64,000 nt of DNA from Actinomyces oricola (GTDB lineage: Bacteria > Actinomycetota > Actinomycetes > Actinomycetales > Actinomycetaceae), in assembly GCF_004104015.1 (NCBI RefSeq), contig NZ_RYFV01000002.1, positions 1-64,000 on the forward strand, given 5' to 3'. Under the pieces are notes generated by a model that was given only the letters and a program-made list of their open reading frames with translations, ran no database searches and had not been told where the DNA came from. A program made the translations under genes and the position numbers. Position 1 is the stretch's first letter; each line of letters opens with the position of its first letter. Positions 16,096-35,732 of the stretch are shown one piece after another.

Positions 16096-17136
16096 GTTGC
16101 AGTTCCTTCGGGAACTGCACTTCATTGAGGCCGTGCTTAACCGACGGGGTTACATCGACCTCAAGTTGCAGTTCCTTCGGGAACTGCACTTCATTGAGGC
16201 GTGGCGGAGGAGTCCGCCGTGGAGCTGGATCTCTAGTTGCAGTTCCTTCGGGAACTGCACTTCATTGAGGCGCGCAGTCCATGTCTGAAGGATACTTGAA
16301 GATGATGTTGCAGTTCCTTCGGGAACTGCACTTCATTGAGGCGCTTCCGCTTGACCTCAGAAGAAAAACCCCCGAGAGTTGCAGTTCCTTCGGGAACTGC
16401 ACTTCATTGAGGCTCAATTCATCGTCCCCTTCCGAGACAGTAGTGCCAGGTTGCAGTTCCTTCGGGAACTGCACTTCATTGAGGCCAGTTCGCCGTTGGA
16501 CATACCCTTCACATTCATGGTTGCAGTTCCTTCGGGAACTGCACTTCATTGAGGCCCATCCAAGAGGGCGTCGTGCAGATAACCCGGCTTGTTGCAGTTC
16601 CTTCGGGAACTGCACTTCATTGAGGCTTATCTGGTCTGTGTGGTCTATCGGAGTTGCCGTGGGTTGCAGTTCCTTCGGGAACTGCACTTCATTGAGGCAT
16701 TCGAACACGTCGAGCACATTGTTGTAATCAAGCCAGTTGCAGTTCCTTCGGGAACTGCACTTCATTGAGGCGAATGGTCACCGTATACATACGCGACTGC
16801 ATAATGGTTGCAGTTCCTTCGGGAACTGCACTTCATTGAGGCATATCTCCATGCACCAGGACTACAGCCAGGTGCCCGGTGTTGCAGTTCCTTCGGGAAC
16901 TGCACTTCATTGAGGCGCGATCAGCGTCACCCCGATGGGGATGGTAATCGAAGTTGCAGTTCCTTCGGGAACTGCACTTCATTGAGGCCCCAGGATGTTC
17001 TCCTGGATCGTCTCCAGGGACTCGCCAGGTTGCAGTTCCTTCGGGAACTGCACTTCATTGAGGCCCGCACGAGCCTGCTCCAAACGCGACGCACCCGGCA
17101 TGTTGCAGTTCCTTCGGGAACTGCACTTCATTGAGC
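16096..17136 (+). CRISPR. CRISPR array, 15 repeats and 14 spacers (type I-G)
   Basis: The 36-bp repeat begins GTTGCAGTTCC and ends TTCATTGAGGC. Copies start at 16096, 16165, 16236, 16307, 16378, 16450, 16520, 16591, 16663, 16736, 16807, 16881, 16953, 17029 and 17102. The first 14 are identical. The last keeps 34 bases to GAG and then diverges (one G missing), marking the leader-distal end. Spacers are 33-40 bp. Inside each repeat an 8-bp stem (GCAGTTCC and GGAACTGC) closes on TTCG, so the RNA would form a very stable C(UUCG)G tetraloop hairpin, the likely site recognised by the Cas6-like part of Csb2. The array follows cas2 on the same strand. Confidence 0.98.
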
Positions 17137-20178: not shown

Positions 20179-20928
20179 TCAGGCGTAGACCACGTCCGTA
20201 CCCGAGCCCTCCAGTGCGGCCAGCTGCGCCGTCGAGGGCGGCGCGGTGGTCACCACCGTCTGCAGGTCGCTCAGCGCGCAGACCGCGAGCAGCCCGGTTC
20301 CGGGGAACTTGTCGGTCGTGGCCACAAGGCACGTGCGCTCGGAGGCCGCCCGGATCGCCTGCTTGATCGGCACCTCCACGCCCGTGGAATCCAAGACCGT
20401 GCCGTCGGGTCGGATTCCCGAGGTCCCCATGAAGGCGATGCCAGCGCTGAGCTGGGCCAGCGCCTGCTGCGTCAGCGACCCCACCAGTGAGAGGTACGAG
20501 GCTCGCAAGAGCCCGCCCAGCACAATGAGCTCAACTGTCCGGTCATTGCGCAGCTCATCGACCACCGCCAGCGAGGCGGTGACCACCGTAATGTCCCTGC
20601 CGCGCAGGTGCCGGGCCACCGCCGCGCAGGTGGTGCCGATATCGAGCAGGACGACGTCACGATCCTGAACAAGACCGGCGGCCGTGGCCCCGATCCGGTC
20701 CTTCTCCTCGGCATAATGCGTGGCCACATGTGCGAATGGCTGATCATCGACCTCCACCGCGCCACCGCCGCGCACCCGCTGCAACAGCCCTTCGCGGTCC
20801 AGCGCGTTGAGATCGCGCCGGATGGTCGACTCCGAGACGTCAAGGCGCCTGGCGAGATCGGTCACCGAGGCACCTCCGCGCTCCCTCACGAAGGACAGGA
20901 TGGCCGTGTGCCGTTGCTGGACCAGCAT
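20179..20928 (-). CDS. DeoR-family transcriptional regulator of the sugar locus
   Basis: A 249-residue repressor. The N-terminal DeoR helix-turn-helix is textbook: RHTAILSFVRERGGASVTDL then ARRLDVSESTIRRDLNALDREG (about residues 5-46). The C-terminal sugar-phosphate-sensing domain contains VVLLDIGTTCAAVARHL, LIVLGGLLR and LVATTDKF. It is divergent from the ABC transporter operon. The spacer carries four phased decamers (20949-20988) that also occur before the aldolase and kinase genes, so it probably controls the whole locus to 28202 and itself. The ligand is probably a phosphorylated sugar formed by the pathway. The start may be the ATG at 20928 or the GTG at 20934. Confidence 0.88.
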   Translation of the reverse strand: MLVQQRHTAILSFVRERGGASVTDLARRLDVSESTIRRDLNALDREGLLQRVRGGGAVEVDDQPFAHVATHYAEEKDRIGATAAGLVQDRDVVLLDIGTTCAAVARHLRGRDITVVTASLAVVDELRNDRTVELIVLGGLLRASYLSLVGSLTQQALAQLSAGIAFMGTSGIRPDGTVLDSTGVEVPIKQAIRAASERTCLVATTDKFPGTGLLAVCALSDLQTVVTTAPPSTAQLAALEGSGTDVVYA

Positions 20929-20948
20929 GACCACACCCTATCCCACTT

Positions 20949-20988
20949 CGAGCACTATCGTGCAGAATCGTTCAAATTCAGTCAGAAT
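20949..20988. promoter_or_regulatory. Four phased decamer repeats, probable DeoR operator (deoR-ABC spacer)
   Basis: Four direct 10-bp copies start at 20949, 20959, 20969 and 20979, exactly one helical turn apart. The first is CGAGCACTAT and the third CGTTCAAATT; the shared pattern is YGWKCANAAT. The array lies between the divergent deoR and transporter genes. Phased direct repeats are typical DeoR-family operators. Similar arrays lie at 25438-25481 and 27137-27176. Confidence 0.65.
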
Positions 20989-21127
20989 TGGCGTAGACTC
21001 GTCCTCGCCACACTCTTGCGCAGCCCCGAACCGGCGCGTCTGAGACTCCGCCTGACACCGCCGTCGGCGATCCATCGTCTCGGCCGACCGCCGGGGCGCC
21101 GTCCACCTCATGAGCAAGGAGAACCCC

Positions 21128-22522
21128 GTGCGCCGCACCCCCACCCCCGTCACCCAACGGGCCCACCACCTCAGCCGTCGCCACGTCATTGCGGGCGCCG
21201 GGGCCCTGGCGGCCCTGGCCGCCCTGTCCGCCTGCGCGCCCTCCGGCTCCGGCTCGGGCTCCTCGGCCGGCCCCGTGGCGGTCTCAACCGATATCGCCGG
21301 CCTTCCCGACCAGACCCTCACCGTGTGGGACCAAGAGGTCCGCGGCGGCCAGAACGAGCAAATGGAGACCCTCAACGCCGCCTTCATGGCCGCCTACCCC
21401 AACATCACGATCAAGCGCGTCTCCCAGTCCTTCGACGACCTCCAAACCACCCTGCGCCTGGCACTGACCGGAGACGACGCCCCCGACGTCGTCGAGGCCA
21501 ACAACGCCCGCTCCACCATGGGGCAGTTCGTCGCCGCGGGCCAGCTCATGAGCCTCGACCCGTGGATCACGACCTACGGCTGGGACTCCAGCTACAGCGC
21601 CTCCATCCTGGCCTACTCCTCCTACTCCAGCGACGGTGCCACCTTCGGCGAGGGCTCCCTGTGGGGTCTGCCCCAGGTCGGCGAGGCCATCGGCATCTAC
21701 TACTCGCCCTCGCGCCTGAGCGCACTGGGCCTGTCCGCCCCCACCACATGGGAGGACTTCACCGCCCAGCTGGCCACCATCAAGGCCGCCGGACAGGTCC
21801 CGCTCATGCTGGGCAACGTCGAGAAATGGCCCGCCTTCCACATCTTCGGCCCGGTTCAGGCCGCACACGTCCCCGCCGACCAGATCCGCGCCCTTGGCTT
21901 CGGCAACCCCGGCGCCTCCTGGAACACCCCCGAGAACCTCGCGGCGGCCACCGAACTCCAGGACTGGGCGAAGAACGGCTACTTCAACGACGGCTTCAAC
22001 GGCGTCGACTACGACTCGGTGTGGCAGGACTTCTCCCAGGGCACCGGCATCTACCTCATGGCCGGCTCCTGGCTCGCCCCGGACCTCAAGGCGGTCCTGG
22101 GCGACGACGTGCGCTTCATGCTCCCGCCGAAGTCCGCCACCATGGACAAGCCCGCCACCACCGGGGGCACCGGGCTGCCCTTCGCCATCACCTCAGCGGC
22201 CAAGGACCCCAATGTGGCCGCGGCCTACATCAACTTCATCACCAACGCCGAGGCCATGAAGGTCCTGGCGGAGACCGGCAACGTGCCCGTCAACGGCGCC
22301 TCGACCTACGCCGAGGGCCAAACCGGCGTGGTCCACGACGTCATGACCGGATTCGACACCCTCACCACCCAGGGCGAGGTCCTGCCCTACCTCGACTACG
22401 CCACGACCACCTTCGACCAGGTCCTCGGCGACTCACTGCAATCCCTGCTCGACTCGCGCACCACGCCCCAGGACTTCCTGTCCGCGCTGGAGGCGGCCTA
22501 CACCGAGCACACCGCCGGGTGA
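21128..22522 (+). CDS. ABC sugar transporter, extracellular solute-binding lipoprotein
   Basis: A 464-residue lipoprotein. The N-terminus has RR (SRRHVIAGAGAL) and then a lipobox LSAC, so Cys near residue 36 would be lipidated; the twin arginines suggest possible Tat export. The mature part is a family 1 carbohydrate-binding protein (LTVWDQEVRGGQNEQ, then DAPDVVEANNA and LWGLPQVGEAIGIYY). It captures a sugar outside the membrane and delivers it to the two permeases encoded next. The GTG at 21128 was chosen because AAGGAG lies six bases upstream, while the ATG at 21110 has none. No ATPase gene is in the cluster, so a shared MsiK-type ATPase encoded elsewhere is expected. Confidence 0.9.
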   Translation: MRRTPTPVTQRAHHLSRRHVIAGAGALAALAALSACAPSGSGSGSSAGPVAVSTDIAGLPDQTLTVWDQEVRGGQNEQMETLNAAFMAAYPNITIKRVSQSFDDLQTTLRLALTGDDAPDVVEANNARSTMGQFVAAGQLMSLDPWITTYGWDSSYSASILAYSSYSSDGATFGEGSLWGLPQVGEAIGIYYSPSRLSALGLSAPTTWEDFTAQLATIKAAGQVPLMLGNVEKWPAFHIFGPVQAAHVPADQIRALGFGNPGASWNTPENLAAATELQDWAKNGYFNDGFNGVDYDSVWQDFSQGTGIYLMAGSWLAPDLKAVLGDDVRFMLPPKSATMDKPATTGGTGLPFAITSAAKDPNVAAAYINFITNAEAMKVLAETGNVPVNGASTYAEGQTGVVHDVMTGFDTLTTQGEVLPYLDYATTTFDQVLGDSLQSLLDSRTTPQDFLSALEAAYTEHTAG

Positions 22523-22528
22523 GGCCCG

Positions 22529-23413
22529 ATGACGCCACCTGCCACCATCCGGCGCGGACGCACCATGGCCATCGTCGGCCTGCTGACGCCGCCCCTGATC
22601 GTCTACGGCCTATTCATGCTCTACCCGCTGGCGCGCGTTGTCACACTGTCCTTCTACGAGTGGGACGGCCTGGGGGTGGGCCGGTGGGTCGGCGTCGAGA
22701 ACTACATGACGACCTTCTCCGACGACCGCCTCGCAGGAGCCTTCGGCCACGCCCTGGTGCTCATCGTCTTCTACGCGCTGCTTCCGCTCATTATCGGCCT
22801 GCCCCTGGCCACGCTCCTGACCCGCAGTGAGCTGCGCGGCATCGGCCTGTTCCGCACGGTGGTCTTCCTGCCCCAGGTCATCGCCATGGTGGTGCTGGCG
22901 GTGGCCTGGCGCCGGATCTACGCCCCCGACGGCCTGCTCAACAGCGTCCTGCGCGCCGTCGGGCTGGACGGGCTCACCCGCGCCTGGCTCGGTGACTTCT
23001 CCACGGCGCTGCCCGCCGTCGGCCTCATCGGCACCTGGGTGAGCACCGGACTGGTCACCGTTCTGCTCATGAGCGGCATCGCCGCCATACCCAAGGACTA
23101 CTACGAGGCGGCCATCCTCGACGGCGCCGGCTGGTGGCAGCGCTTCTGGCACATCACCATCCCCGGCGTGAGGGCCGAGATCCTCGTGTGCCTCACCCTG
23201 ACGATCATCGCCGCCCTGAAGACCTTCGACCTCGTCTATGTCACCACCTCCGGCGGCCCTGGCTCGACGACGACGGTCCCCAGCTACGAGGTCTACAACC
23301 AGGCCTTCCGCCTGGGCAGCGTCGGGACGGCCTCCTCCCTGGCCGTCGTGCTGACCCTCGTCATCTTCGTCATCAACCTGACGATCAACCTGGTCGGGGA
23401 GAGGCGACGATGA
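22529..23413 (+). CDS. ABC sugar transporter permease (MalF/UgpA type)
   Basis: A 294-residue inner-membrane permease with six predicted helices. The first lies at about residues 10-32 (LLTPPLIVYGLFMLYPLARV). The family EAA loop that contacts the ATPase is KDYYEAAILDGAGWWQRFWH (about 187-206). The gene starts six bases after the binding-protein stop and overlaps the second permease by 4 bp (ATGA), so the three form one operon under the DeoR-type operator. Substrate unknown; the neighbouring GH4 enzyme points to a glycoside. Confidence 0.92.
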   Translation: MTPPATIRRGRTMAIVGLLTPPLIVYGLFMLYPLARVVTLSFYEWDGLGVGRWVGVENYMTTFSDDRLAGAFGHALVLIVFYALLPLIIGLPLATLLTRSELRGIGLFRTVVFLPQVIAMVVLAVAWRRIYAPDGLLNSVLRAVGLDGLTRAWLGDFSTALPAVGLIGTWVSTGLVTVLLMSGIAAIPKDYYEAAILDGAGWWQRFWHITIPGVRAEILVCLTLTIIAALKTFDLVYVTTSGGPGSTTTVPSYEVYNQAFRLGSVGTASSLAVVLTLVIFVINLTINLVGERRR

Positions 23414-24219
23414 GGGCCTCGCGCATGGAGAGGGCCGTCAACTACATGGTCCTCGTCCTCTTCGCCGCCCAGGCCCTCATCCCGGTGCTGTACGTCGTCA
23501 TCCTGTCGCTGCGCTCGGAGCGGATCGGCGACGACTCGTGGGGGCACGTCGAGAACTACGCGACCGCCTGGGAGCAGGGGCGCTTCTCCCAGTACATGGC
23601 CAACTCGGCGATCATTGCCGTGCTCGTCGTCGGGCTGGCGCTCGTGCTCTCGCTCATGAGCGGATACGTCCTGGGGGTGCTGCGGCCGCGGGGCGGAAAC
23701 GTCCTGTTCTTCGTGTTCCTCCTGGGCATTATGGTGCCCAGCGAGGCCATTGTGCTGCCAATGTTCTTCGACATGCGCGCCCTGGGGCTGACCGACACGG
23801 TCTGGGCGGTGGCCCTGCCCCAGACCGCTCAGTCGCTGGCATTCGGCACCTTCTGGATGCGGGCCTTCTTCCGCGGGGTGGACCCGGCCATCCTCGAGGC
23901 CGCACGGATCGATGGCGCCGGCGATCTGCGGATTCTGGTCTCGGTGCTCCTGCCCATCGGCAGGCCCGCGATCGTGACGCAGGTGGTTCTGACCTTCATG
24001 TGGACGTGGAACGACTTCCTCATCCCGCTGGTCATGTCGCCCTCGGGCGCCATGCGCACGGCCCCACTGGGGTTGGCCTTCTTCCAAGGGCAGTACACGC
24101 AGGGCTCAACCCTGCTGGCCGCCGGCGCCGTCCTGGTCGCCCTGCCAATGGTCATCCTCTACCTGGTGCTGCAAAAGCAGTTCATCTCCGGCATGACCGA
24201 AGGCGCCGTCAAGGGGTAG
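23410..24219 (+). CDS. ABC sugar transporter permease (MalG type)
   Basis: A 269-residue inner-membrane permease with about six helices. The first is at about 10-32 (VNYMVLVLFAAQALIPVLYV). The EAA loop reads DPAILEAARIDGAGDLRILV (about 160-179), the coupling helix to the ATPase. The C-terminus ends LQKQFISGMTEGAVKG, the usual ending of this family. The ATG overlaps the stop of the first permease (ATGA). Upstream frame extension is antisense to known structure and excluded. A hairpin at 24288-24328 follows. Confidence 0.92.
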   Translation: MRASRMERAVNYMVLVLFAAQALIPVLYVVILSLRSERIGDDSWGHVENYATAWEQGRFSQYMANSAIIAVLVVGLALVLSLMSGYVLGVLRPRGGNVLFFVFLLGIMVPSEAIVLPMFFDMRALGLTDTVWAVALPQTAQSLAFGTFWMRAFFRGVDPAILEAARIDGAGDLRILVSVLLPIGRPAIVTQVVLTFMWTWNDFLIPLVMSPSGAMRTAPLGLAFFQGQYTQGSTLLAAGAVLVALPMVILYLVLQKQFISGMTEGAVKG

Positions 24220-24287
24220 TTAAGGGGGAGGGGCCGCCCGGCAGCCGCGGCATTTCGCCTTCGAGGCCTTCCGCCCACTTCGAGGCC

Positions 24288-24328
24288 TTCCGTCGAGTTC
24301 GAGCCCGCCGGGCCCGAACTCGACGGAA
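24288..24328. terminator. Inverted repeat after the ABC transporter operon
   Basis: Perfect 14-bp arms (TTCCGTCGAGTTCG at 24288-24301 and its complement at 24315-24328) enclose a 13-base loop, 68 bp beyond the last permease stop and before the convergent aldolase gene. Just upstream a 15-base phrase (CTTCGAGGCCTTCCG) is repeated. Confidence 0.65.
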
Positions 24329-24452
24329 AGCGCTCTAAGGGCGACCGTCCGTGGCGCTGCACCGCGGCCTGGCGCCCGACCGGGTGACGGAGCCCGGGCC
24401 GATCCCCTGCGCGCCCCGGTCAACCTCCGTCAGGTCCTCGTGCCCCTGACCC

Positions 24453-25340
24453 TCAGGCGACAGAGGCCCGGTAGATGCCCTCGACGCTCGCGGCGAGGGT
24501 CGAGTCGAACTCCTCCTTGCTCTGGGAGTCCGACAGCCCCTCGAGGAGGGCCCGCGAGAAGCTGGCGATGAGCCCCGGGTTGCGGGCCAGGCGGGCATTG
24601 GCGTCCTCGCGCTCATACCCGCCGGACAGGGCCACCACGCGCATGACTCGAGGGTGCTCCATGATCGGGGTGAACAGGCCGTCCACACTGGGGATGGTCA
24701 CCTTGAGCATGACGTCGCGCCCCGGGCCCAGGGCATCGAGGCGCTTGGTGAGCGCGGCGATGAGGAGGTCCTCGGCGGCGGCCTTGTCCGGTGCGTGGAT
24801 GTCCACCTCGGGTTCAATGATCGGCACGAGTCCGGCGTCGAGAATCTGCTCGGCCACCTCGAACTGCTGGTCGACGACGGCGCCCACGCCCTCCGGGTCC
24901 GCCCCCAGGATGACCGAACGCATCTTGGTGCCGAAGATCCCGGCGTCCACGGCCCGCTTGAGCAGATCCGCCAAGCCGGGGTTGTCCACCATGAGGCGGG
25001 CGGAGTGCTGCTCCTCGGCGAGGCCCTTGTCGACCTTGAGGAAGGGCACCACCCCCTTGACCTCCCACAGGTAATCGGCCGTCGGCTTGCCTTCGATCTG
25101 GCCGTCCATGGTGCGTTCGAAGAGGATCGCGCCGAGGATCCTGCTTGAACTGAAGGCCTTCGAGGTGATGACGCGGGTGCGCATCTGGTGGACGAGGTCG
25201 AACATTTCGGCCTCGTTCGAGTAGCGCTCGGGGCCTACGCCGTAGGCTGCGAGGGCTTTGGGGGTTGATCCGCCCGACTGGTCAAGAGCGGCGATGAAGC
25301 CGGCTCCGTGTCGCATCTGCTGTGCCTGTTGCTGGTTCAC
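24453..25340 (-). CDS. Fructose-bisphosphate aldolase, class I
   Basis: A 295-residue metal-independent (Schiff-base) aldolase of the bacterial class I type, cleaving fructose 1,6-bisphosphate or a related ketose bisphosphate. The N-terminus has the family stretch [20 protein letters not shown] (about 13-32); then [24 protein letters not shown] (Lys region), [10 protein letters not shown] and MLKVTIPS, with [11 protein letters not shown] near the C-terminus. The GTG at 25340 has a GAGGAG site and gives the family length; the frame upstream is excluded. Its own promoter and operator-like repeats lie at 25438-25481. In this locus it is the likely last step of the sugar pathway. Confidence 0.92.
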
Positions 25341-25437
25341 GGTTACTCCTCGGGTATGCGAACGCTCGGAATCCGGAGCCGGGCCCGGCGCGGGGTCCCG
25401 TACGGAACCGTCGTCAGTGCCCGACACCACCATTCTA

Positions 25438-25481
25438 CGTGAGAACGATTCTCAATCATAGTGCATGATCGATTCTGCTAC
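25438..25481 (-). promoter_or_regulatory. Promoter and DeoR-like operator of the aldolase gene
   Basis: On the minus strand, decamers CATGCACTAT (25467-25458), GATTGAGAAT and CGTTCTCACG run in 10-bp phase, with a further copy (GTAGCAGAAT) at 25481-25472. They share GCACTAT, five bases to AGAATCGTTC, with the deoR spacer (20952-20973). A -10-like TATGAT at 25460-25455 is embedded. The inverted repeat TGAGAACGATTCTCA (25440-25454) also resembles a Fur/Zur box with one mismatch. The DeoR reading is favoured because the similarity to the other operator extends beyond it. Confidence 0.6.
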
Positions 25482-25521
25482 CCGGGCCCAACCAAGCCGG
25501 CGCCGCGCCGCCACCGCGGGC

Positions 25522-26928
25522 TCATTGGCCGAAGACGCGGGCCACCTCCGGGCTATTGCGCACGTAGCCCTCGACAATGCGCCGGGCCACCTCCACGGAG
25601 TCGACAAGTGGATGAGCGGCCACCGCGCGCCAGGCGAGGTCGAAGTCGCCGCGGAGGGTCGCCTCGATGACGAGTTCTTCACAGGCCTTGACGGCCGTCA
25701 CCAGCCCGAGCTCCGGGCCGCTGACCGGAGCCACATCCTGGGGGTGAGCGCCGTCGTCGCCCACGAGACAGGGCACCTCGACCACGGCATCCTCACGCAA
25801 CTGGGGCACGGTGAGGCCCGCCCCGCCGTCGTCGCGCCGGTCGGAATTGGCGACGTTGAGGATCATGCGGGCGGGCGATCCGGTGGCCACGGCCGTCATG
25901 AAGTCCAGGGCGACCTCCTGGTAGCCGCCTGCGGCGATGTCCTCCTCGCGCCGGGCGGAGCGTTGGGATTCGGCCCGGGACTCGGCCATGTAGGTGGCCT
26001 CGCGCTCGCCGTGCGCACAGACCCACAGCTCGCCCGCGCGCCCCGGATCGGCGGTGACGGCGTCGAAGAACGCGGTCTGCTGACGGTCGAGGAACTGCCC
26101 GCGGGTTTCGTCCTCGCGGCGGATCCGGGCCACGGACTCGCGGTTGAGGTAGTAGTAGAAGAGGTACTCGTTGGGGAGCACCCCCAGAGCGCGAACCCAG
26201 TCCACTCCGATGGCGCGTACCTCCTCGATGGCATCGAGGAGGTCGTCACGGGCCAGGAGCTCGGGAAGCCGGTCGACGCCGTCGACCGTCAGCCTGCGCA
26301 GCCAGCCCAGGTGGTTGAGTCCGGCATAGTCGAACTCCACCCGCCCCCGTGGTCGGGCGGCCTCCCGCGGGTCGACCCCCAGGGCCGCGCAGGCGCGCCG
26401 CACCAACCCGATGGGGGTGTCGCAGATGCCGACGACGCGCCGCCCGAGCACGGTGCGCATCGCCTGGGTGATGATGCCCGCCGGATTGGTGAAGTTGATG
26501 ACCCAGGCCTCGGGGGCGAGGTCGCGCACCACGCGGGCCAGGTCCACGGCCACCGGGATGGTGCGGAAGGCATAGGCGTAACCGCCCGGGCCCACGGTCT
26601 CCTGCCCCAGCACCCCCTGGTCGAGGGCGACGCGCTCGTCAACAATGCGGCCGCCGGTTCCGCCCACGCGAATGGCGGAGAAGACGAAGTCCGCGCCGCG
26701 CACGGCCTCGCGCAACTCGGTGGTCGTGGTGACGGCGGGAGCATGGGGGAAGGCCAGGTCGGTCAGGATGGCCCGCATGGCGCTCAGGCGGCGCGCCGAG
26801 ACGTCGTAGAGGCACAGCTCGTCGACAACGAGATGAGCGTGACTGCCGGCTCCGGCGCGGGCCTGAGCGAGCACCTCGACGATCTGGGGCACGCGGAATC
26901 CGCCACCCCCGACAATGACCAGCTTCAT
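25522..26928 (-). CDS. Glycoside hydrolase family 4 (6-phospho-beta-glucosidase-like)
   Basis: A 468-residue NAD+- and metal-dependent glycosidase. The Rossmann N-terminus is MKLVIVGGGGFRVPQIVEVL. The family stretch VINFTNPAGIITQAM (about residues 130-144) precedes the metal-binding Cys in GICDTP, and the metal-binding His is in LNHLGW (about 200). GH4 enzymes cleave alpha- or beta-glycosides by an oxidation-elimination route. The closest named class is 6-phospho-beta-glucosidase, but uptake here is by ABC transporter, so the substrate may be unphosphorylated. The ATG at 26928 has a GGAGG upstream and starts the NAD motif; the 102 preceding codons of the frame are excluded. It is divergent from the kinase gene. 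Confidence 0.9.
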   Translation of the reverse strand: MKLVIVGGGGFRVPQIVEVLAQARAGAGSHAHLVVDELCLYDVSARRLSAMRAILTDLAFPHAPAVTTTTELREAVRGADFVFSAIRVGGTGGRIVDERVALDQGVLGQETVGPGGYAYAFRTIPVAVDLARVVRDLAPEAWVINFTNPAGIITQAMRTVLGRRVVGICDTPIGLVRRACAALGVDPREAARPRGRVEFDYAGLNHLGWLRRLTVDGVDRLPELLARDDLLDAIEEVRAIGVDWVRALGVLPNEYLFYYYLNRESVARIRREDETRGQFLDRQQTAFFDAVTADPGRAGELWVCAHGEREATYMAESRAESQRSARREEDIAAGGYQEVALDFMTAVATGSPARMILNVANSDRRDDGGAGLTVPQLREDAVVEVPCLVGDDGAHPQDVAPVSGPELGLVTAVKACEELVIEATLRGDFDLAWRAVAAHPLVDSVEVARRIVEGYVRNSPEVARVFGQ

Positions 26929-27136
26929 GCGTGACAAACCTCCGTGTGCGGCCAGCCCGGGTGGTGGAGGCGTCATGGCCGCCCGGCGGAGGCGCCTCCG
27001 TGCGCCGGGCCCGGGCCCATTGCCGCGGCGCATGGACTGCATGCCGCGGCGAGGTGGCCGTGAGGTCGCCGGCGCCCGCATTGGCGGAGGCCCGGTTCGC
27101 CCGCAGCCGCGCCAACACAGTCCCACTCTACAACAA

Positions 27137-27176
27137 TGAGCAGAAATGAGCATCTTCGAGCAAAAGTGAGTACGCT
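27137..27176. promoter_or_regulatory. Four phased decamer repeats, probable DeoR operator (GH4-kinase spacer)
   Basis: Direct 10-bp copies start at 27137, 27147, 27157 and 27167. The first is TGAGCAGAAA and the third CGAGCAAAAG, with the same YGWKCANAAT pattern as the deoR spacer. The array ends seven bases before the kinase start codon, between divergent GH4 and kinase genes, so one site could repress both. Confidence 0.62.
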
Positions 27177-27182
27177 GGGCGG

Positions 27183-28202
27183 GTGGATTCCTTGGCAGGC
27201 AGAACCGTGTCCGGCGGGAGTGAGCCCGGTACAACCGCCTCCAGTGCGGGTGGGCCCGGCGCGGGCGGGCCCACCACTGGTCCGGTCCTCGCCGTCGGCC
27301 CGCTGTTCCTCGACGTCGTCATGGGCGGCCTCGAGCACGCCCCTCGCCCCGGCCAGGAGCAGTGGGTGCCCGATTGCGCGCTAACCCCTGGGGGCGTGGC
27401 CAATCAGGCCGTGGCGCTGTCACGGCTCGGGCTGGCGGCGTCCGTCGTGACCTATGTGGGCCGCGATACCGCCGGGCGGCTCGTCGAGGCCATGCTCGCC
27501 GAGGAGGGCGTCGGGCTGGATGCGGTGGCTTACGTCGAACGCCAATCGGTGTCGACCAGTCTGTTCTTCGACGGCGACCGGGCGATAACGACCTTCGGCT
27601 CCGACGCCGCCCCACCCGTGGCCCCCGGTCCGGCCCCCGCGGCGCTGCTCGCCGATCTCGCCGGCATTGCGGGCAGCCTCGACGTCATACGCGCGTGGCG
27701 GGATTCGTCGACGCCGACCTGGGTGCTGGGCGATGTCGGCTGGGATCCCACGGGCCGCTGGGACCCCGCTGACCTCGATCCGCTGCACGCCGTCGATGTG
27801 TTCACGCCCAATGACGCCGAGGCCCTTCATTACACGCGGGCCGACTCCGTCGCCGAGGCGGCCGGCATGCTCGCCCAGAGGGTGGGAACCGTCATTGTGA
27901 CCTGCGGTGCGCATGGAGTGGTGGCCATCGGGGAGGAGCGCATCAGCCTTCGCTGCCCGGCGGTCCGCGCCGTGGACACCACGGGTGCGGGCGACACCTT
28001 CTCCGCCGCCCTGACGTGGGCGCATCTTCACGGACTGGGGCTGCGGGCGGCTCTCAGTGCCGCGGTCCTCGCCGCCACGCTGACGGTCCTCTCGCCGGGC
28101 GGGGCATCCAGCGCGCCGCGTCCGGCGCAGCTGGCCGCCTTCGCACGCAGCCATCGGCCCGAGCTCGAGGGCTACGACCTGGCCTTCCTCGACCTTCTTT
28201 GA
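27183..28202 (+). CDS. PfkB-family carbohydrate kinase
   Basis: A 339-residue ribokinase-family sugar kinase. After a low-complexity Gly/Pro-rich N-terminus the fold starts at LAVGPLFLDVVMGGL; the substrate loop reads CALTPGGVANQAVALSRLG (about 62-80) with the first PfkB signature, and the second signature VDTTGAGDTFSAAL (about 264-277) carries the anion hole and catalytic Asp. It phosphorylates a sugar or sugar phosphate. In this locus it would act between the GH4 hydrolase and the class I aldolase, making the substrate for one or the other. Start is the GTG at 27183, directly behind the phased repeats; a more internal start is possible because the first 30 residues are not conserved fold. 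Confidence 0.87.
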   Translation: MDSLAGRTVSGGSEPGTTASSAGGPGAGGPTTGPVLAVGPLFLDVVMGGLEHAPRPGQEQWVPDCALTPGGVANQAVALSRLGLAASVVTYVGRDTAGRLVEAMLAEEGVGLDAVAYVERQSVSTSLFFDGDRAITTFGSDAAPPVAPGPAPAALLADLAGIAGSLDVIRAWRDSSTPTWVLGDVGWDPTGRWDPADLDPLHAVDVFTPNDAEALHYTRADSVAEAAGMLAQRVGTVIVTCGAHGVVAIGEERISLRCPAVRAVDTTGAGDTFSAALTWAHLHGLGLRAALSAAVLAATLTVLSPGGASSAPRPAQLAAFARSHRPELEGYDLAFLDLL

Positions 28203-32859: not shown

Positions 32860-32930
32860 TGCGGTGCGGCAGCGAGATCTTCCCTTAACTCATGACTGTG
32901 GCTGCCGCTCCCCGTATCGAAGGAGATACC

Positions 32931-35732
32931 ATGCGAGCCCCGTATCGCTTCCTGGCGCTGTGCGTGGCGATGGCTCTCGCGTCTATCGGAGTTCTGACCA
33001 TCGTGCCCGAGTCGGCTCTCGCCGACGACGATGCGACTGCTTCGGAGGCCTGGCGACCGCTGGCGCACTATGCACCCGAGAAGAATTGGATGAACGACCC
33101 CAACGGACTGGTGTACGAGAACGGCACGTATCACCTGTTCTACCAGTACAACCCCTACGGCCTGGAGTGGGGCAATATGTCCTGGGGGCATGCCACATCC
33201 CCAGATCTCATTCACTGGACTGAGCGGGAAGTCGCGATTCCTGCGACCGACTCCTATGGAGTCTTCTCCGGGTCGGCGGTCTACGACGAGAACAACACCT
33301 CGGGGTTGGGAACAGCCGAGGCCCCGCCGATTGTCGCGGTGTGGACGCGCGCGGATACAGCGACGGGTATCCAGGCCCAGTCGCTGTCCTACTCCACCGA
33401 TCACGGCGCTACCTGGACGAACTACAACGATGGCGCCCCGGTGCTGGACATCGGCTCCAGGGAGTTCCGCGACCCCAAGGTGTTCTGGGATGACGTCTCG
33501 GGCAAGTGGATTATGGTCGCCGTCGTCGCCACCGAGCACAAGGTCGTCTTCTACTCCTCGAACAACCTCATCGACTGGGCCTACGAGTCCGAGGTCGGCG
33601 GGATCGGGGACACCACCGCCGTGTGGGAGTGCCCCGACCTGTTCCCCCTGCAAGTCGATGGCGGCGACCAGACCAAATGGGTGCTGAGCGTATCCATTGC
33701 GGGCGGGGTCGGCCGAACCAAGTACTTCACCGGCGACTGGGACGGCTCGGTCTTCACCCCGGATCCGTTGCCGAGTTACGACGGCTCTGAAGGCGAGATG
33801 CTGGCGAACTTCGACTCCGGCAGCTGGGACGGATGGGTTGTCGACGGTTCCGCCTTCTCCAAGGAGCCGGCAACTGGTTCATGGCCGGATCAACTGCCGG
33901 TGGCCGGATATGAAGGCAGTGGCTTTGTGAATACCTTCTATGATGCCGCCACCGGCCGGGGCAGTGACGCCACCACGGGCACGGCCACCTCCCCGGAATT
34001 CACCATTAACGCGGATTATCTCAATATGCGCATTGGCGGCGGCAACCACCCCTATGACCCGGTCGCCACCGGTGACGACGGCGGCGGCACGTTATTCGCA
34101 GGCTTCGACTCCGGGACCTGGGAGGGCTGGTCCGTGGAGGGGGACGCCTTCTCCTCCGCTCCCGCGACGGGCGGCTGGCCCGATCAACTGCCGTTGGGCA
34201 ACCAGCGCGGAGCCGGACTGATCAATACCTTCTATGATGCCGTCACCGGTCGGGGCTCCGACGCCACCACGGGCACGGCCACCTCCCCGGAGTTCACCAT
34301 TAACGCTCCGTATATTAACCTCAATATCGGAGGCGGCTATCACACTGCCGATTCCCCGTCCGGACGCACAACAGTGGAACTGGTCGTTGACGGTCAGGTC
34401 GTGCGCACGGCCACCGGGCGCGACACCGAAGTGCTCAACTGGCAGTCGTGGGACGTAACGGATCTCAACGGCAAGACCGCCACGATCGTCGTGACGGATG
34501 CGGCTACCGGGGGATGGGGGCACATTCTCCTCGACGAGGTGCGCCTGGGTGAGCGCCCTGCCACGCCCGTGCCGAGTCATACATCAGTTAACGTCGTGGT
34601 TGACGGGGAGGTTGTCGGCTCCGCCACGGGAAACCAGAGCGAACTCCTGGCATGGCAGAGTATTGATCTCAGGCAGTGGAAGGGCCGGCAGGCAAGCATT
34701 GTCATTGAGGACGCCAACACTTCAGGTGATTACGGGCATATCCTGGTCGACTCCATCCTCGCCTCGAATACTCAAGGCTTCTCGGGAGCCGATGCCATGC
34801 CCATCATCGACCACGGCATGGACTACTACGCCGCGGTGACGTGGAACCACACCCCTGATGGCGAGCGCTACGGGATTGGTTGGATGTCGCATTGGTCCTA
34901 CGCCGGCGCCCTGCCCACCTCGACGTGGCGCCAGGCCATGACCATGGTGCGCAAGTATGAACTCAGGACGGTCAATGGGCAGGTTCAGCTCGTGTCGTCT
35001 CCGGTGGAGGCGCTGGATACCTTGCGCACCGGGGAATCTTTCTCGACCACCGATGTGACTGTCAGTGATGGTGCGGACGTGGTCCTTGACCAGGGGGCCG
35101 CCGGCAACGCCTATGACATGGAAGTGGTGTTTGATCCGGGCTCCGCCAGTCGCAGCGGCGTCAAGGTTCTCGCCTCCGGTGATGAGGCCACGGTGATCGG
35201 CTACGACGCCCAGGCGGGCACGGTCTACGTGGATCGCACTAATTCTGGGCGCACCTCCTTTAGCCCGGCGTTCCCGTCAGTGTCCTCGGCTCCTGTTAAG
35301 CCTGATGCCGATGGTCTGATCCACTTGCGGGTGCTCGTTGACCGCTCGAGCGTTGAGGTCTTCGCCGGAAGCGGTGAGGCGGTCATCACCTCAGCGGTCT
35401 ACCCCTCGCCCCAGTCCACCAATGTCATTCTCTTCTCCGAAGGCGGTGAGATGACGGTGCGAAGCATGGCGATCCACCACCTTGGGGATTATCACAGCGG
35501 TGATCAGCCCACGCCTACGCCCACGCCCGCGCCCACGGGTGATCCGGCGACGACTCCGCCGTCTGACAACCCGACAGGGGGAGCGTCAACCCAGCCCGTG
35601 GCCACGCCGACGTCAGCGGGATCGAGTAGTTCGTCGTCGTTGGCGACTACTGGAGTCCGGATCGGCCTGCCGCTCTTGCTGGCTGTGTGCGCTATTGGTG
35701 TCGGGCTGCGGCTCATGCGGCGCAGGACCTGA
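32931..35732 (+). CDS. Cell-wall-anchored GH32 fructan/sucrose hydrolase (levanase or inulinase type)
   Basis: A 933-residue secreted beta-fructosidase. The signal peptide spans about residues 1-31 and ends SALA-DDD. The GH32 five-bladed propeller begins with WMNDPNG (nucleophile Asp56), then FRDPKVF (Asp near 180) and ECPD (acid/base Glu near 233). The propeller is interrupted at about residues 290-475 by two similar beta-rich insert modules and a third shorter related part (see the repeat entry). The C-terminal GH32 beta-sandwich follows (VDRSSVEVFAGSGE). A Pro/Thr/Ser-rich wall spacer ends in the sortase signal LATTG, a hydrophobic helix and RMRRR-like basic tail. It probably degrades dietary levan, inulin or sucrose outside the cell. 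The ATG at 32931 has an AAGGAG site. Confidence 0.93.
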   Translation: MRAPYRFLALCVAMALASIGVLTIVPESALADDDATASEAWRPLAHYAPEKNWMNDPNGLVYENGTYHLFYQYNPYGLEWGNMSWGHATSPDLIHWTEREVAIPATDSYGVFSGSAVYDENNTSGLGTAEAPPIVAVWTRADTATGIQAQSLSYSTDHGATWTNYNDGAPVLDIGSREFRDPKVFWDDVSGKWIMVAVVATEHKVVFYSSNNLIDWAYESEVGGIGDTTAVWECPDLFPLQVDGGDQTKWVLSVSIAGGVGRTKYFTGDWDGSVFTPDPLPSYDGSEGEMLANFDSGSWDGWVVDGSAFSKEPATGSWPDQLPVAGYEGSGFVNTFYDAATGRGSDATTGTATSPEFTINADYLNMRIGGGNHPYDPVATGDDGGGTLFAGFDSGTWEGWSVEGDAFSSAPATGGWPDQLPLGNQRGAGLINTFYDAVTGRGSDATTGTATSPEFTINAPYINLNIGGGYHTADSPSGRTTVELVVDGQVVRTATGRDTEVLNWQSWDVTDLNGKTATIVVTDAATGGWGHILLDEVRLGERPATPVPSHTSVNVVVDGEVVGSATGNQSELLAWQSIDLRQWKGRQASIVIEDANTSGDYGHILVDSILASNTQGFSGADAMPIIDHGMDYYAAVTWNHTPDGERYGIGWMSHWSYAGALPTSTWRQAMTMVRKYELRTVNGQVQLVSSPVEALDTLRTGESFSTTDVTVSDGADVVLDQGAAGNAYDMEVVFDPGSASRSGVKVLASGDEATVIGYDAQAGTVYVDRTNSGRTSFSPAFPSVSSAPVKPDADGLIHLRVLVDRSSVEVFAGSGEAVITSAVYPSPQSTNVILFSEGGEMTVRSMAIHHLGDYHSGDQPTPTPTPAPTGDPATTPPSDNPTGGASTQPVATPTSAGSSSSSSLATTGVRIGLPLLLAVCAIGVGLRLMRRRT
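33810..34344 (+). repeat. Duplicated insert module inside the fructanase gene
   Basis: Two copies offset by 294 bp (beginning at 33810 and 34104) encode FDSGSWDGW and FDSGTWEGW, then WPDQLP, NTFYDA and RGSDATTGTATSPEFTIN in each. The DNA is nearly identical in the last 80 bases of each copy. Each resembles the small beta-sandwich inserted in GH32 enzymes of Gram-positive bacteria. The near-identity suggests a recent internal duplication. Confidence 0.8.

Follow-up and report, generated by a model that had tools for sequence, protein, structure and literature searches.

Candidate DeoR-type decamer operators and a predicted Zur-type aldolase box in a sugar locus of Actinomyces oricola

We studied a stretch of 64,000 nucleotides (nt) from Actinomyces oricola (contig NZ_RYFV01000002.1, positions 1 to 64,000), hereafter the window, that contains a sugar locus with genes for a DeoR-type repressor (deoR), an ATP-binding cassette (ABC) importer, a GH4 glycosidase, a PfkB-family sugar kinase and a class I fructose-bisphosphate aldolase. 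Judging from the sequence, two regulators probably meet at this locus, DeoR on the local sugar regulon and Zur on the class I aldolase. In the best reading, the sugar regulon would comprise deoR and the genes for the GH4 glycosidase, the kinase and the importer, the aldolase being merely a neighbour. An earlier note on this DNA had described three decamer arrays in 10-base-pair (bp) phase and had derived from them one regulon that included the aldolase. The arrays at 20949-20988 and 27137-27176 read as described, but the one at 25438-25481 does not. A single regulon is plausible for deoR, GH4, kinase and importer, the array operator being shared by the importer and kinase promoters, but is not supported for the aldolase, whose conserved site is a Fur-family palindrome like the one at znuACB-zur.

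Two conserved decamer arrays

The two arrays are located as follows:

20949-20988, plus strand: predicted DeoR-type operator array 1, situated between deoR and the importer genes and made up of four decamers in phase (30.5 bits, rank 2 in the window)
27137-27176, plus strand: predicted DeoR-type operator array 2, just before the GTG of the kinase gene (32.2 bits, rank 1 in the window)

Array 1 consists of the units CGAGCACTAT CGTGCAGAAT CGTTCAAATT CAGTCAGAAT and is followed, 5 nt past its end, by a -10 element read by eye (TAGACT, 20994-20999). The units of array 2 are TGAGCAGAAA TGAGCATCTT CGAGCAAAAG TGAGTACGCT. Three of them are strong (27137-27166) and the fourth is weak (3.5 bits); the -10 element read by eye (TACGCT, 27171-27176) lies within this weak unit, 4 nt past the third one.

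We compared the locus with those of 49 Actinomyces genomes (including that of A. oricola) and, as a more distant relative, with a locus of Flaviflexus (L026). The DeoR orthologue is present in 14 of the 49 genomes, own counted, with 70-77% identity; in the incomplete genome G028 it is split over two frames (79 and 62% identity). The other 14 fetched loci (13 of the genus and that of Flaviflexus) all have the divergent order GH4 - deoR | kinase, and 12 of them have orthologous importer genes downstream of the kinase. The permease matches of L035 and L040 are merely 31-35% identical. The locus of the window is rearranged: deoR lies opposite the importer, GH4 lies opposite the kinase, and the aldolase adjoins GH4. 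Of the 14 other deoR loci fetched, only L040 was found to contain the aldolase, about 5 kb past GH4.

The deoR-kinase spacers of the 13 relatives within the genus were searched by Gibbs sampling for runs of four consecutive 10-mers, which yielded one unit, with 430 bits vs 159-187 in eight shuffled sets. Once registered, this unit reads TGMKCANWWT. We scanned the window with a matrix trained on the spacers of 10 relatives, i.e., with the window unused and with the near-duplicates L030, L034 and L040 as well as the Flaviflexus locus omitted. Both arrays of the window ranked at the top, which upholds the deoR-linked 10-bp operator that the earlier note had proposed for the importer and kinase promoters. 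The best unrelated site of the window scored 12.3 bits, and the maxima of 40 Markov-1 random windows (mean 12.1 bits, standard deviation 2.85, top value 25.2) stayed below both arrays. The signal was specific to the period, with 32 bits at 10 bp and at most 20.4 at periods of 7-9 and 11-14.

The same note had also stated that its proposal would fall if the decamer period were not conserved in orthologous spacers, and the proposal withstands this check. With clade-out training, the spacer array was the top site of its 12-20 kb locus in all 14 loci, L026 included, and the smallest margin was that of L031 (27.6 vs 22.3). The period was also visible when no motif was assumed. The self-similarity of the 14 focal spacers (window included) had a mean z of 2.61 at lag 10, with 6 of the 14 spacers above 3, and of 2.05 at lag 20; the other lags from 6 to 24 gave at most 1.14. 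On these sequence comparisons, the two arrays are real and conserved, and their layout, decamers in a 10-bp period over the -35 region, agrees with that of published operators of the DeoR family.

In 11 of the 13 genus relatives, a TANNNT element follows 4-5 nt after the fourth unit or after a fifth one in phase, which implies that the array lies over the -35 region. This placement is based on position and conservation. The core TGMKCA is almost self-complementary; in 8 of 14 loci the higher score belongs to the strand running towards the kinase, and in 6 to the opposite one. Array 2 scores about equally on both strands (32.2 vs 32.15 on the other strand, at 27133-27172); array 1 is better on the plus strand (30.5 vs 16.2). 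Because the core is quasi-palindromic, head-to-tail binding of DeoR proteins side by side stays hypothetical. A row of short dyads one helical turn apart would fit several packings.

A palindrome before the aldolase

The region 25438-25481, tried as a third DeoR operator, was rejected. Four units together score at most 8.4 on the minus strand and 4.0 on the plus strand, and the region does not figure in the 25 top window sites of the array matrix (lowest listed 7.1). The region contains instead:

25440-25454, minus strand: predicted Zur-type 7-1-7 palindrome TGAGAACGATTCTCA (minus strand TGAGAATCGTTCTCA), the place with no mismatch in the genome search below (25.2 bits)

A -10 element read by eye (TAGAAT, 25437-25432) adjoins the palindrome. 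Across the aldolase orthologues of the genus its consensus is TGAGAACCGTTCTCA. It was found, with at most 3 mismatches (3 in L050, 0-2 in the rest), in 24 of 29 aldolase loci, each in a different genome; 26 genomes have the gene. The five loci without the box are those of the G047 gene, of a fragment in G038, and of second or divergent copies in G009, G043 and G028. This deoR is missing from 14 of the 24 box-bearing genomes, and this aldolase from four of the genomes with deoR; hence, box and deoR are uncoupled.

The palindrome recurs at the putative zinc uptake genes. A search of the own 2.93-Mb genome with TGAKAAYNRTTMTCA, allowing at most one mismatch, retrieved three places: the aldolase promoter (0 mismatches), C34 (1), and the start of znuA (1). 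The latter gene heads znuA-znuC-znuB, which is followed by the sole Fur-family gene found in the genome (C77). We then used a box matrix made from 23 other aldolase boxes. It included no znuA sequence, and the window's own box and the box-less loci L067, L069, L070, L071 and L072 were omitted. The aldolase box of the window scored 25.2 bits (next window site 14.5) and the own znuA box 23.2 bits. Among 30 fetched znuA loci, 25 were judged zur-adjacent by coordinates, and in 23 of these 25 relatives' loci the znuA promoter was the best site of the 3.8-kb locus (17.8-24.5 bits). The null distribution per 4 kb had a mean of 7.0, a 95% value of 12.4 and a highest value of 20.7 in 300. In the two misses (L150 and L151) zur lies upstream of znuA. 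Five znuA loci lie away from zur; three of them (L147, L148 and L161) contain sites of 16.2-20.5 bits, and in the other two (L146 and L149) no site exceeds 11.8.

The closest entries to the Fur-family protein in the PDB are 7vo0/3mwm (158 bits), followed by the Mycobacterium tuberculosis zinc regulator 2o03 (144 bits) and then by PerR (62 bits). The entries 7vo0/3mwm are titled putative metal uptake regulation protein; we take them to be Zur of Streptomyces coelicolor. The Zur orthologue is present in 49 of the 49 genus genomes. The own genome encodes one class I aldolase with the box and two class II-type aldolases without it (best scores 5.3 and 2.9).

Box-like sites also occur elsewhere. 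Besides aldolase and znuA, 13 further loci of the own genome have sites of 11.5-20.0 bits; the three that were inspected showed no clear zinc link. One 20.0-bit site (L143, G000:C12:28648-28662) is flanked by genes for an ABC ATPase and a small membrane protein, possibly another metal-regulated transporter. In L147 (G004) and L148 (G003), at position 1378, a Zur-type box precedes a second metal-binding-protein gene (20.5 and 16.3 bits). The own copy of this box (L146) is degenerate (10.6 bits).

Proposed mechanism

From the arrays, the box, their conservation, the box at znuACB-zur and the gene families, we infer binding, repression, an inducer and a zinc response. DeoR (20179-20934) would repress the importer, the kinase, GH4 and its own gene. 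Its operator would consist of TGMKCANWWT decamers, about four in number and spaced by one helical turn, over the -35 region and 4-5 nt before the -10 element. With the array in this position, the bound repressor would cover the promoter until released by the inducer, probably a sugar phosphate, which would free DeoR from the promoter. In the relatives a single array would serve the divergent GH4-deoR | kinase-importer pair; in the window the locus has come apart, and either part would have its own array. When zinc is present, Zur would sit on TGAGAACGATTCTCA beside the -10 element and keep the class I aldolase repressed. When zinc is short, Zur would leave, and the metal-free class I aldolase would replace the metal-dependent class II enzyme. 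A zinc-sparing replacement by a Zur-controlled class I aldolase is the simplest reading of these sites; it assumes that zinc is the metal of the class II aldolase of this organism.

The sugar route may consist of import by the ABC system, phosphorylation by the kinase and cleavage of the phosphorylated glycoside by GH4, which would need no aldolase of its own. This agrees with the absence of the aldolase from the clusters of the relatives.

Alternative explanations

Several observations weigh against parts of this interpretation. Outside the genus, no box was found before aldolases (0 of 9 loci, three of them near-identical; best 7.4 bits), so the arrangement looks like a genus property. Within the genus, the G047 aldolase gene has no box in front of it. 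Of the 23 znuA sites, five fall below the highest single null value. The NCBIfam models for the metal-binding protein, the ATPase, the permease and the regulator all stay below cut-off, and the best ones for the regulator are Fur and PerR, not Zur (PRK11639 Zur has 48 bits vs a cut-off of 167). Because of this, zinc specificity rests on the relationship to the PDB entries and on the linkage to znuACB. As for the decamers, the TANNNT spacing is not kept in L029 and L030, and a sigma-70 scan of 20900-27300 gave no promoter match, which is why the -10 elements were read by eye. Finally, Zur alone does not explain why the deoR operator resembles the aldolase promoter. The earlier note had pointed out that both sites share GCACTAT-N5-AGAATCGTTC. 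This stretch is present, with 17 of 22 bases alike, and none of 2,266,222 positions in the other fetched (partly overlapping) loci reaches 17, with seven reaching 16.

This likeness speaks for one DeoR regulon over all three promoters, aldolase included. The AGAATCGTTC half falls inside the palindrome TGAGAATCGTTCTCA, and the left half, GCACTAT, is present in the own aldolase promoter alone (1 of 29 aldolase promoters) and was possibly newly gained; moreover, the aldolase sits within the locus here. Such a regulon is nevertheless very improbable given the low four-unit score at the aldolase, the uncoupling of box and deoR across the genus, and the near-complete absence of the aldolase from the other fetched deoR loci. 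A recently gained, partial DeoR contact at the aldolase promoter has a small probability. In the boldest reading, zinc starvation would rewire glycolysis itself in Actinomyces, with Zur derepressing the class I aldolase in place of the class II enzyme; in this species the gene would have moved into the DeoR locus and would carry a composite promoter, its Zur box interleaved with degenerate DeoR decamers, where zinc and sugar are read together. This seems unlikely to us.

The palindrome might also be the site of a Fur-family regulator of iron, manganese or peroxide responses. Boxes of the 7-1-7 type are general in the Fur superfamily, and the sub-threshold NCBIfam scores of the regulator point the same way. 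A class I aldolase also figures in a table of FurA-affected genes of Anabaena (PMC4788461). We give little credit to this possibility, since the single Fur-family gene found in the genome lies behind znuACB and its product matches the solved zinc-type regulators of actinobacteria with over 80 bits more than it does PerR or Fur. It is just as doubtful that the arrays are bound by a regulator other than the neighbouring DeoR, or that they are promoter or bending elements. The units do contain more A+T than the genome at large, and promoters often show an A+T periodicity of about 10 bp. Yet, the specific YG-N-KCA letters are conserved, beyond A+T alone, all 14 of 14 loci have the array within their deoR-kinase spacer, and no such excess at lag 10 was seen in 92 other DeoR upstream regions (hand-picked from among the matches listed). 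Control of the sugar genes by DeoR and of the aldolase by Zur thus remains our preferred reading.

Comparison with known systems

The operator of FruR, a DeoR-family regulator of Lactococcus lactis, is built of four 10-bp repeats that lie side by side and overlap the -35 box (Barriere et al. 2005, as told in PMC10765703). The arrays studied here likewise have four adjacent 10-bp repeats over the -35 region, but in another organism, with another sugar and another regulator; the likeness is one of layout. Four groups of DeoR-family RhaR regulators have direct-repeat operators with a 10-11 bp periodicity and a sequence that varies by group (PMC3870299). They resemble our arrays in having repeats near 10 bp, but RhaR operators have two imperfect repeats, compared with about four units here. 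The decamer operator would be a conserved actinobacterial addition to the known 10-bp-repeat operators of DeoR proteins.

The consensus of the Mycobacterium smegmatis Zur box, found before znuABC and zur, is a YGA-AA palindrome with one central base (PMC7174638). The layout is the same here, but the fourth base of each half is G/C, where that consensus has A/T. The targets of M. smegmatis Zur named in the available text are ribosomal proteins and zinc uptake, and that text does not mention a fructose-bisphosphate aldolase. We found no report of Zur control of a class I aldolase in the open-licence literature available to us.

Class I aldolases are metal-free, whereas class II aldolases are metal-dependent (PMC9973326). 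In Staphylococcus aureus, the class I aldolase FdaB is used under manganese starvation and is controlled by ArlRS and an unidentified regulator (PMC9973326). There, as proposed here, a class I enzyme replaces a metal-dependent isozyme, but the control is by ArlRS and the metal is manganese. In Salmonella lacking zinc uptake, a class I aldolase supplied on a plasmid fully restored intracellular growth (PMC6221366). There, zinc shortage hits the class II aldolase and a class I enzyme comes to the rescue, as would be the case in Actinomyces. Unlike here, the Salmonella class I gene was expressed from a plasmid promoter and is described as induced by gluconeogenic substrates, with no link to Zur seen in the available part of that source.

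If our interpretation is true, a zinc sensor controls a central glycolytic enzyme, and zinc-sparing extends from ribosomal proteins and zinc uptake to aldolase. Zur would also be a candidate answer, in this genus, to the question raised by S. aureus FdaB: which metal-responsive regulator activates a metal-free aldolase (PMC9973326).

Genes of the locus

The genes of the locus are, in window coordinates:

20179-20934, minus strand: DeoR/GlpR-type repressor (PF08220 HTH_DeoR, 57 bits, cut-off 21; PF00455 DeoRC, 141 bits, cut-off 31.8)
21110-24219, plus strand: ABC sugar importer, a solute-binding protein and two permeases (SBP_bac_1, BPD_transp_1 twice)
24453-25340, minus strand: class I fructose-bisphosphate aldolase (GTG start at 25340 after GAGGAG, start checked)
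25522-26928, minus strand: GH4 glycosidase (Glyco_hydro_4 and Glyco_hydro_4C; start at 26928, checked)
27183-28202, plus strand: PfkB-family sugar kinase (PfkB, 116 bits; GTG start)

The DeoR protein had no named NCBIfam equivalog at or above its cut-off and no match in a PDB sequence search. The aldolase matched NF003784 with 464 bits (cut-off 392) when scored on the longer frame 24453-25433. The nearest solved structures are 6-phospho-beta-glucosidases for GH4 and ribokinases for the kinase.

Search for further arrays

We also searched for further members of the regulon with the exact pattern YGNKCAN4YGNKCAN4YGNKCA. It had matches in 30 of the 49 genomes, which did not track deoR. The search was discarded as evidence because it recovered the focal array in merely 5 of the 14 deoR genomes (G000, G003, G004, G007 and G037). 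When two mismatches were allowed, the own genome had 346 matches vs 161 for the reversed control. Four candidates of the own genome (C5, C20, C21 and C42) were dropped with array-matrix scores of at most 20.8, and no other convincing array was found there by this crude pattern search. In the 92 other DeoR upstream regions of the genus, the mean z was 0.54 at lag 10 (5 of 92 above 3) and 0.99 at lag 22 (10 of 92). Lag 10 is thus no clearer than other lags, and a 10-bp rule for the whole family is unsupported by this crude test.

Two DeoR paralogues have rows of their own. In L022 (G000:C23, 2246-2305), a row of TGTTCGA/TGAGCGA with a 10-bp period lies upstream of a paralogous deoR gene beside a galactokinase-like gene. 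It scores 13.2 bits with the array matrix; its phase is the same and its letters are different. Upstream of another DeoR paralogue (36-38% identical), L043 (8772-8821) and L041 (7241-7300) have similar units (TGTGCAAAGT TGATCAATAC), with 21.4 and 16.3 bits, which suggests that related repressors may share a code.

Other features of the window

Rfam and transfer RNA scans of the whole window found nothing. The region 16235-17064 resembles an array of clustered regularly interspaced short palindromic repeats (CRISPR), the unit GTTGCAGTTCCTTCGGGAACTGCACTTCATTGAGG being repeated with varying spacers. The region 32892-35732 encodes a large secreted protein resembling a GH32 fructan hydrolase. It contains WMNDPNG, which we take to be the GH32 signature, and ends in a sortase-like LATTG-hydrophobic-RRR tail.

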